NCBI GenBank assembly: GCA_937958875.1
Contig: CALGMJ010000131.1
Location: forward strand, 1-32,442
Length of the DNA stretch: 32,442 bases
Reading direction: 5' to 3'
Origin: an uncultured Verrucomicrobiales bacterium
GTDB taxonomy: Bacteria > Verrucomicrobiota > Verrucomicrobiia > Verrucomicrobiales > Akkermansiaceae
Below the pieces are notes generated by a model. That model worked only from the letters and a program-made list of their open reading frames with translations, was not told where the DNA came from and ran no database searches. Both the position numbers and the translations under genes were made by a program. How positions within the stretch are numbered: the stretch's first letter is position 1; every line of letters begins with the position of its first letter. Shown here one piece after another: positions 6,863 through 31,537 of the stretch.

Positions 6863-6952
6863 GGACAGGTGCCAGAGTGGTCGAATGGGCTCGCCTGGAA
6901 AGCGTGTGTGGCGGTAACGTCACCGTGGGTTCGAATCCCACCCTGTCCGCCA
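6863..6952 (+). tRNA. tRNA-Ser (anticodon GGA), CCA encoded
   Basis: Acceptor GGACAGG/CCTGTCC, D-stem CCA/TGG, anticodon loop CTGGAAA, long variable arm GTGGCG-GTAA-CGTCAC, T-arm GTGGG-TTCGAAT-CCCAC, then G73 and CCA. Confidence 0.95.
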
Positions 6953-11470: not shown

Positions 11471-12538
11471 TCAGACTGCTTGATAGTGGCGAATGAGTTC
11501 GGCTGCATTTTCCTGAAAAACCGTCTCGTGATAATGGGATAGCTCGAGGTGAAACTCGGGCTCTTGATAGACTGATTCATCTGAACCGGGGCGGCGATAA
11601 ACAAGGTCGTAATGATGAACTAGAATGGACTCTAGAAAAGTAGGCCAATCTTTTTGGTCAATCTGCTGATGCCATTGATCGACCTGAGCATGGCCACGAA
11701 GGCGTCGCAGTCCATTGAGTTTTTCTTTCAGTCTCTCCGGTTTCTCAATGAAGTGAGGGTAGTCTTCTGCAAGGAAGAGAGCTCGGTCTCGAAGAGGTAG
11801 GCTGACTTGAACGATACGTGCTTGCCCGAGACGTTTCCAGAGGGCTCCTGGACAGTGAATTTTTCCAATCCGATTTGACTCTGCTTCTGTAAAGACTGGC
11901 CGGCTGGGATCAAAACTTTGAAAATCTTGCCACAGGCGAGACTCGAACCATTTCTGCGAAGGTTGTTCCCTAGAAGTCGGATTTCCGAGAATGGAGCCTT
12001 TATGGTCGGCATGGCCTTCGAGGTCGAGAACCTGAGCCCCTTGTTCGGCAAGAGCATGAAGAAGGCGAGTTTTTCCACAGCCGGTAAGGCCGCCAAGTAC
12101 GATGAGTTCTGGTGTCTTAGTGCTTAGCTTCTCATCGAGATCCGCGATGAGCCACTTGCGCCATTGTTTATAGCCGCCATGCAAGAGTCGAGAGCGCCAG
12201 CCAATCGCACGAAAGATGATCGCCATTGAGTTTGAGCGGAGATTTCCTCGCCAGCAATAGATTAAGGGAGCGAAGTCTCGCTGGCGATCTGCGAGAGTAG
12301 TAGCAAGGTGCCGATGGATATTCTCCGTAATTAAAGTGGCCCCGAGCCGTCGGGCTTCGAAGGTATTCGCCGCATGGAGAGTTCCGATGGTTTTTCGTTG
12401 CTCATCACTGAGCACGGGAAGATTGATCGCTCCCGGGATATGGTCATCTTTAAATTCGGAGGGAGCTCGGACATCAATGATGTCCGAGAAATCTCCCGGG
12501 TGAAAAGGAGTTTTGACGCACTCAGGGAGCTGCATCAT
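11471..12538 (-). CDS. mnmH: tRNA 2-selenouridine synthase (MnmH/SelU)
   Basis: N-terminal rhodanese domain (IDVRAPSEF...HIPGAINLP, YCWRGNLRS with catalytic Cys) and a P-loop (GLTGCGKT). Overall architecture matches MnmH. Confidence 0.93.
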   Translation of the reverse strand: MMQLPECVKTPFHPGDFSDIIDVRAPSEFKDDHIPGAINLPVLSDEQRKTIGTLHAANTFEARRLGATLITENIHRHLATTLADRQRDFAPLIYCWRGNLRSNSMAIIFRAIGWRSRLLHGGYKQWRKWLIADLDEKLSTKTPELIVLGGLTGCGKTRLLHALAEQGAQVLDLEGHADHKGSILGNPTSREQPSQKWFESRLWQDFQSFDPSRPVFTEAESNRIGKIHCPGALWKRLGQARIVQVSLPLRDRALFLAEDYPHFIEKPERLKEKLNGLRRLRGHAQVDQWHQQIDQKDWPTFLESILVHHYDLVYRRPGSDESVYQEPEFHLELSHYHETVFQENAAELIRHYQAV

Positions 12539-29627: not shown

Positions 29628-30830
29628 TTATCCAAAAATCGCCATCTTCCATTTCGGAAATGGGTCTTTGAACATCTTGTGCCATTTACGCTCCTCGGTG
29701 GCGATTTCGTCTTCGGTGAGAAGGCAGCTGTCGAGCATTGAAATGAGTGCATTGCGATCCATCTTGCGCCCGATGAGAACGATCTCCTGTCGGCAGTCAC
29801 CATTGGGTCCTTTCCAGACGCGTTCGATATGATCGCGCTCTTCGGGCCAGTGATCTTTTGGCACTGCGGCCCAGAAATGCCCAGCGCATTGATGGCGGAC
29901 GACGGCCCCGGCCTGTGACCAAAAGCCAGCCATCTTGAGTCGCGTCGCAAGCCAGAAAACTCCTTTGGAGCGAATGACGCCGGGCCATTCTTTTTTGAGG
30001 CAATTGAAGAAGCGCTCGGGATGAAAGGGGATTCGACGTTCGTAGATGAAGTTTGAGATACCGTATTCTTCAGTTTCGGGAGTGTGTTCGACTAAGGAAT
30101 CAAGCCAGCCCTCGGTTTCTGCCGCTTTTTCCTGATGATAGAGTCCGGTTCCAAGAACTGAATTGAGAGGCACTTGTGATTCCACCGTATCATGAATGAT
30201 TGCTTGCGGATTCAGGGCACGGATCATCCCGTGCACCGTGTGAAGCTTCTCTTGAGTCACAAGATCTGTTTTATTGACGAGGATGACATCGGCAAACTCG
30301 ATTTGGTCGCTGAGGAGATCGACAATGGTACGCTCGTCTTCTTCGCCGACAGCCTGCTTGCGGTCATCGAGGGTTTCAGAGGTAGAATAATCGCGCAGGA
30401 AATTGGGTGCGTCTACCACGGTCACCATAGTGTCGATATGAGCGAGATCTCCCAGTGATTGTCCGCTTTCATCCTCGAAGGTGAACGTTTCCGCAACGGG
30501 CATGGGCTCAGAGACGCCGGTGGACTCGATGACGAGGTGGTCAAATCGATTTTCGCGCGCTAGTTTACCGACTTCTAACAGAAGGTCTTCACGCAGGGTG
30601 CAGCAGATGCAGCCATTGGTCATCTCGACCATCTTTTCCTCGGTATGAGAGAGTGCGGCATCACCATTGCGAACAAGCTCAGCATCAACATTGACCTCGG
30701 ACATATCGTTGACAATGACCGCCACGCGCTTGCCCTCACGATTACGGAGAATATGGTTGAGAAGAGTCGTTTTTCCGGCTCCAAGGAACCCGGAAAGAAC
30801 GGTAACTGGAAGTTTTGTGGACGTAGTCAT
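29628..30830 (-). CDS. COG0523 GTPase (CobW/ZigA-like putative zinc metallochaperone)
   Basis: [17 protein letters not shown] (P-loop), [13 protein letters not shown] (GCxCC motif), [14 protein letters not shown], and a C-terminal CobW domain. Confidence 0.92.
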
Positions 30831-30878: not shown

Positions 30879-30914
30879 AGTTGTTATTAACGCAACTAAT
30901 TTGCATTATGTTAA
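30879..30914. promoter_or_regulatory. Candidate Zur-like operator in the shared COG0523/MerC intergenic region
   Basis: AGTTG-N9-CAACT (30879-30897) and TTAAC(30887-30891)...GTTAA(30910-30914) inverted repeats in an AT-rich 5' region. Exact family assignment is not possible by eye. Confidence 0.3.
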
Positions 30915-31537
30915 AGGTAATCCCTTCCCAAGAGGCCTCACTGGCTGGAAGTAGAATGAAATTTTGGAATCCAGATCGTGTTGGAGTGTGGGCTTCGGTC
31001 TTGTGTGCCATTCACTGTGCAGCGACCCCAGTTCTTCTTTTAATATTACCGACCTTCGGTAAGGCGTGGTCGCATCCGGCCTCTCATTGGGGGATGGCCT
31101 TGATCGTGGTTCCTATTGCGGGCTTGATGATGACGAGAGGATTTCAGAAGCACCGTCGGAAATGGATTCTGCTGAGTGGTTCATTGGGGATTGTATTTGT
31201 TTTGGTGGGAGCGGTTTTACCCTATTTGGAGACTCCCAAGCAAAGCGTCGCCCTCACGGAGACTCCCGTTGCTGAAACAGAGGAAGGCGTCGATGAAGGA
31301 GTTGGTGTAGGATGAGCAGGCTCTGAAGCAGCGGTCGCTGCTGACGATTCATCCGTCACTGGTTGTGTTGATAATTGTTGTCCTTCTTTTCAAGTGAATG
31401 AAGAAGGAGAACGCAGTTTATACATCCCACCAGCGAGTATCGTGACAACTGCAGGAGGACTCTTTCTCATCGTCACACATGTGGGTAATCTTTGCTGCTG
31501 TTCTTCATGCCGCAAGAAGCGGAAAAAACTCTCCTAA
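30908..31537 (+). CDS. MerC-domain membrane protein with in-frame TGA at 31313-31315; candidate selenoprotein or nonsense-interrupted gene
   Basis: DRVGVWASVLCAIHCAATPVLLLILPTFG...MTRGFQKHRRKWILLSGSLGIVFVLVGAVLPYL (MerC-like). After the TGA the same frame reads AGSEAAVAADDSSVTGCVDNCCPSFQVNEEGERSLYIPPASIVTTAGGLFLIVTHVGNLCCCSSCRKKRKKLS and ends with TAA at 31535-31537. The start could be 30908 or 30956. Confidence 0.6.
31316..31342 (+). promoter_or_regulatory. Candidate bacterial SECIS-like hairpin after the in-frame TGA
   Basis: Perfect stem AGCAGC(31327-31332)-GGTC-GCTGCT(31337-31342). The GGTC apical loop starts 17 nt after the TGA; E. coli fdhF has a GGUC apical loop at a similar distance. 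Confidence 0.4.

Follow-up and report, generated by a model that had tools for sequence, protein, structure and literature searches.

Is the in-frame TGA of a merC-type gene in this Verrucomicrobiales genome a stop codon, or is it decoded as selenocysteine (Sec)? The window, meaning the whole stretch of DNA analysed (32,442 nucleotides), is an entire contig of a 2.94-Mb genome that is 77% complete, and its close relatives are metagenome assemblies. The frame 30908-31537 has the TGA at 31313-31315 as its sole interruption, stays open for 73 further codons and ends at TAA 31535-31537, exactly as the original prediction, made from the sequence alone, had described; past the TGA the translated tail reads GCVDNCC...SIVTTAGGLFLIVTHVGNLCCCSSCRKKRKKLS. 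Our analysis supports the view that the product of this frame is very likely a MerC-family membrane protein with four helices and with Sec at the UGA. Incorporation of selenium is inferred, and there is no direct evidence for it. The features concerned are the following.

30908..31537, forward strand: merC-type gene, very probably encoding a selenoprotein; 209 codons including the UGA taken as Sec, with PF03203 extending across the TGA
31313..31315, forward strand: in-frame TGA, very probably a selenocysteine codon (position 136 if all 209 residues are counted), in the same alignment column in 11 orthologs
31327..31342, forward strand: bSECIS-type hairpin AGCAGC-GGUC-GCUGCU, with the loop at 31333-31336
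31361..31381, forward strand: GCVDNCC, a conserved motif that follows the linker and is probably periplasmic; D155, C157, C158 and P159 invariant, C153 in at least 90%
31430..31534, forward strand: fourth membrane helix with C-terminal CCCSSC and basic tail, located after the UGA; AlphaFold2 helix 175-208, pLDDT of the block 68-89
30889..30907, no strand: palindromic operator AACGCAA-CTAAT-TTGCATT between zigA and merC, probably a Zur box
29628..30830, reverse strand: zigA, zinc metallochaperone GTPase (COG0523) and divergent neighbour; NF038288 ZigA, 611.5 bits against a cut-off of 600
11471..12538, reverse strand: mnmH (selU), tRNA 2-selenouridine synthase; NF008752, 421 bits against a cut-off of 266

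A tRNA gene was also detected in the window at 6863-6949 (Rfam, 54.5 bits). Concerning the start of merC, the operator directly adjoins ATG 30908, whereas orthologs such as locus L004 have it farther ahead of the start codon, so that the true start may be ATG 30956. This alternative has GGAAG upstream, and a GTG stands at the equivalent position in G022; it is possibly as good a start as ATG 30908, or a better one.

The read-through protein forms a single MerC domain. Its match to the Pfam model MerC (PF03203) covers residues 23-195 and spans the TGA (E = 2.1e-24; 86.6 bits against a cut-off of 27.6), with the fourth membrane helix encoded beyond that codon. No NCBIfam model matched it. The AlphaFold2 model (18 sequences, mean pLDDT 69) predicts four long helices at residues 22-46, 57-82, 85-108 and 175-208, and places residues 111-154, including the Sec site 136, in a disordered segment. 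Structural search of this model against the PDB gave nothing significant, and sequence search retrieved no solved relative. Based on the basic stretches GFQKHRRK (between helices 2 and 3) and RKKRKK (at the end), we infer, from sequence alone, that both termini and the loop joining helices 2 and 3 lie inside, and that the loop bearing Sec and GCVDNCC lies outside. If translation ended at the UGA, the product would lack the GCVDNCC motif, membrane helix 4 and the Cys cluster at the C-terminus.

Homolog searches of the genus, the family and the order led to matches in more than 60 genomes. TGA was found at one identical alignment column in 11 genes, namely that of the window and ten orthologs that are 56-86% identical and belong to three genera of the same family (window, G022, G001, G048, G263, G264, G265, G268, G285, G286 and G291; genera g1, g9 and g12). 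The linker around it otherwise varies freely in length and sequence, and neither TAA nor TAG was seen in the linker of any homolog examined. Flags of TAA or TAG in G037, G378, G208, G251 and G087 proved to be terminal and not linker stops, and a TGA flagged in L014 (G053, which has no selA) was terminal as well. In 10 of the 11 orthologs the base after the UGA is G, and the Sec context is G-U-[AGS] in nearly all.

Selection beyond the TGA was assessed by pN/pS. Between the window and G022 the ratio is 0.18 after the TGA and 0.20 before it, while more divergent TGA-type pairs give 0.24-0.36 past the TGA and 0.24-0.45 ahead of it, at synonymous differences that are close to saturated (pS mostly 0.6-0.9 across TGA-type pairs). 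In every pair tested, purifying selection is no weaker past the TGA than ahead of it, a pattern that a true stop followed by a dead tail would not produce.

The hairpin following the UGA is conserved too. In the window its loop starts 18 nt after the UGA, i.e., with 17 nt between them. In all 11 TGA-type genes the hairpin has 6 bp or more and a G within the first two nucleotides of its loop, which begins 18-24 nt after the UGA. The MAFFT alignment set the two loop types in different registers, and pairs were consequently counted by arm. Inner pairs are standard in 66 of 66 cases over the 11 hairpins, with paired changes, and when arms were exchanged between species full pairing was obtained in only 21 of 110. 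Covariation affects pairs 2, 4 and 6 within the group with a 4-nt loop and pair 1 within the group with a 5-nt loop, the two groups differing in register. Specifically, L105 and L107 encode the same EAGSAS peptide, and two synonymous codon changes (GCT..TCA vs GCA..TCT) swap U-A for A-U with the pair kept; in L109 an A-U pair replaces G-C through two amino-acid changes. Synonymous recoding gave p values of 0.01-0.25 for each positioned hairpin and about 6e-5 combined (1.5e-4 without two close relatives). These p values are not fully independent, and the hairpins were selected for pairing, which makes the recoding test the fairer number. For the 45 nt past the UGA, synonymous recodings did not have a higher overall folding energy than the natural sequences (combined p = 0.29); this energy was dropped as evidence, and the positioned hairpin was used alone. 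Hairpins of merC in genera g9 and g12 include GAAGCAG-GUU-CUGCUUC. SelD is a known selenoprotein family, and in these lineages it bears the UGA in SCxG-U-ASK, with an apical hairpin (ACGCAG-GUU-CUGCGU in G048) that starts about 31 nt after the UGA and is comparable to those of merC.

The machinery for Sec is present in the window genome. SelA (contig C57; 477 bits, cut-off 268), SelB (contig C86; 309 bits, cut-off 242) and a tRNA-SeC with anticodon TCA (contig C49) were identified, the last by ARAGORN, because Rfam tRNA-Sec matches above cut-off are not specific here and are obtained even in genomes that lack selA. No SelD was found in the window genome (77% complete), but most relatives of the same genus have it, including G001 and G022. 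As a separate observation, SelD of most same-genus genomes itself contains an in-frame TGA and is a selenoprotein (L115-L119 and other selD loci). Nine of the 11 TGA-type genomes have selA, among them all five that are more than 90% complete. It was not found in G001 (86% complete) or G022 (72% complete); both possess SelB and SelD, and G022 also has tRNA-SeC. The merC homologs of G053, G208 and G251, which lack selA, have open linkers. The mnmH gene of the window is an independent sign of selenium use.

In a maximum-likelihood tree, TGA and non-TGA merC genes are interleaved and at least four changes are needed. Within the main mixed clade, each of the four genes without the TGA (G034, G037, G045 and G284) carries 1-4 linker Cys; G284 has a two-Cys linker, and no selA was found in that genome (83% complete). 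Family-wide, non-TGA linkers mostly hold 1-10 Cys in an acidic stretch, and about a quarter are without any. The linker is variable, and the exact Sec column could not be aligned to a Cys. Sec thus does not occupy the place of an invariant catalytic Cys, and by inference this favours metal binding over classical redox catalysis. One further merC homolog (L027, reverse complement, around position 2229; G024) has ten linker Cys and the C-terminal arrangement CV-TGA-CDGEKVTA-TGA, in a genome with Sec machinery. The TGA of CV-TGA-C was considered as a second Sec site and rejected, its hairpin being weak and an ordinary stop likelier.

Taken as a selenoprotein candidate, the original prediction is strongly supported by the orthologs, the selection pattern, the hairpin and the machinery. 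Its claims that the tail is real protein (GCVDNCC, a hydrophobic helix, CCCSSC and a basic tail), that a perfect 6-bp stem bears the loop GGTC 17 nt after the TGA, that mnmH lies at 11471-12538, and that UGA is not globally reassigned all held. It had proposed to ask whether close homologs carry Cys or TGA at the site; ten orthologs have TGA in the same column, and related non-TGA genes have linker Cys. It would have been refuted by a genome without selA, selB and selC, or by relatives with a sense codon and no conserved hairpin, and neither situation was met. A nonsense mutation in the linker or an assembly error, which it regarded as a serious alternative, is very unlikely given the same TGA in independent assemblies 56-86% identical. 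Its weak point was the hairpin evidence from one sequence: the window hairpin by itself is unremarkable against synonymous recoding (p = 0.14), and conservation and covariation carry the case.

The surroundings of the gene, which the prediction had missed, point to zinc. The divergent neighbour of merC is zigA, with the palindrome between them, and COG0523-type genes adjoin many other merC homologs. No mer genes were identified beside merC in the window, and the gene does not stand in a mer operon. Since the context is zigA and a probable Zur box rather than a mer operon, we class the gene only as a member of the MerC domain family and not as a mercury-resistance MerC, transport being inferred only.

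The palindrome AAYGCAA-N5-TTGCRTT occurs upstream of most merC homologs. The only perfect copy in the window genome is 30889-30907; five others have one mismatch, and three of these stand ahead of genes for a TonB receptor, a ZnuD-like TonB receptor and a His/Glu-rich outer-membrane protein. Genome-wide, 14 perfect copies in six relatives stand before merC (six), metal-ABC binding proteins (two), FolE2, a TonB receptor and a His-rich outer-membrane protein (two), and two remain unassigned. Both metal-ABC binding proteins have the zinc protein AztC as best match, below that model's cut-off, and FolE2 is above its own. Loci with this operator include L134 and L140 (znuA/AztC-like), L132 (folE2), and L124, L127 (ZnuD-like) and L136 (TonB receptors). 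Metal-ABC binding proteins, FolE2 and TonB receptors are typical members of Zur regulons. Because the same palindrome precedes such genes in relatives, we infer that it is very probably a Zur box, and one that defines a regulon across these Verrucomicrobiales. Three FUR-family proteins are encoded in the window genome, none of which could be assigned with certainty as Zur. We also observed a His/Glu/Asp-rich outer-membrane protein behind the same operator (L126, ORF 1564-2721; L138; L141) with a weak match to BBP2 porin, a candidate zinc-regulated porin.

Four rival explanations were considered. The one that survives best accepts the selenoprotein and assigns it to mercury handling, redox defence or metal efflux in place of zinc acquisition, and it remains possible. 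MerC proteins are known as mercuric-ion transporters, MerC in mercury contexts is also found in PMC12452194, and selenols bind Hg very tightly. Against it, no mer gene was identified next to merC and its neighbour is ZigA, the operator is shared in relatives with genes of the zinc-uptake type and folE2, and COG0523 genes flank many homologs.

According to the second rival, the UGA is a true stop and the tail is either translated separately (a split gene or reinitiation) or a decaying nonsense remnant. In its favour, annotation pipelines end the gene there, and a variable linker is a good place to split a protein. It is nevertheless very unlikely: selection past the TGA resembles that before it in every pair tested, 11 species share the TGA column with never a TAA or TAG, the stretch from the TGA to GCVDNCC offers no in-frame ATG or TTG (an in-frame GTG first occurs past that motif), and a lone fourth helix would be a mere fragment of PF03203. 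The third rival, equally hard to sustain, is programmed read-through of the UGA in which a standard amino acid such as Trp or Gly is inserted, without selenium. The G after the UGA in 10 of 11 genes would suit it, and the Gly-rich linker would tolerate most residues. It is opposed by the Sec machinery in the same genomes (with selA in every one of the five TGA-type genomes above 90% completeness), by the hairpin, which in 11 of 11 has the spacing of a bacterial SECIS and a G in its loop, by the linker Cys of non-TGA members of the main mixed clade, and by the open linkers in G053, G208 and G251, which lack selA. Finally, a sequencing or assembly error, conceivable for a metagenome-assembled contig, or a UGA reassignment in this lineage is all but excluded, since the same TGA appears in independent assemblies of ten other species, TGA is an ordinary terminator for 8 of the 20 main window genes (followed by 1-43 open codons, with none of the genes having an in-frame TGA), and the tRNA with the TCA anticodon is called tRNA-SeC by ARAGORN.

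Under the selenoprotein reading, the UGA would be decoded as Sec under the direction of the downstream bSECIS hairpin, using the genome's own SelA, SelB and tRNA-Sec. As inferred from sequence and context, Zur very probably represses merC through the operator that it has in common with the divergent zigA, and the gene would hence be induced by zinc shortage. Sec would lie in a disordered, acidic and probably periplasmic loop between helices 3 and 4, taking the place of the 1-10 loop Cys of most non-Sec homologs. Together with GCVDNCC it may capture a soft metal, most likely zinc, which a MerC-like relay would pass by way of CAIHC, the Cys pair in helix 1, to CCCSSC at the cytoplasmic end, and perhaps onward to ZigA. 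Whether the protein transports zinc at all could go either way, as this is inferred from regulation and neighbours only. A bolder reading, to which we give slightly less credence, is that a Zur-regulated Sec acts as a ligand for zinc or another soft metal in a periplasmic capture loop, for metal acquisition and not redox catalysis, and interchanges with a multi-Cys loop.

Regarding known systems, the window protein resembles MerC (PF03203) in its full-length Pfam match, four predicted helices, the Cys pair CAIHC of helix 1 and Cys near the C-terminus. It differs in the internal Sec, in an extra acidic linker with GCVDNCC between helices 3 and 4, and in standing beside zigA with a probable Zur box instead of in a mer operon. 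A selenoprotein annotated as 'putative mercuric transport protein' MerT (PF02411), with the Sec motif C/SxxU, is listed in PMC13188914. It is likewise a small Mer-type membrane metal transporter predicted to contain Sec, but it belongs to another Pfam family and another genetic context, and its motif differs from the G-U-[AGS] seen here. The same paper lists a SO_0444 family Cu/Zn efflux transporter selenoprotein (NF033936) with the motif UxC, which is also a membrane Zn/Cu transporter annotated with Sec, yet from a different family and acting in efflux. A further parallel is the CobW-related selenoprotein (NF041053): COG0523-type proteins are tied to selenium in some bacteria, and the neighbour of merC in the window is a COG0523 protein; however, this ZigA has no Sec (54.5 bits for NF041053 against a cut-off of 180), and the selenoprotein here is MerC.

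MerC (PF03203) is absent from the inventory of 119 prokaryotic selenoprotein families and subfamilies in that paper (2026), and the open-access literature searched yielded no paper that describes MerC as a selenoprotein or connects it with COG0523 or Zur. Selenoproteins and MerC are both known kinds, and it is their combination under probable Zur control that is likely new. MerC would thus be added to the predicted selenoprotein families, and a likely systematic misannotation would be corrected, as standard gene callers would end such genes at the UGA and report a truncated MerC. The finding also connects Sec with control by zinc starvation, a setting in which its role would probably be metal binding, and related species that have alternated repeatedly between a single Sec and several Cys offer a natural test of the benefit of selenium in a metal-binding loop.
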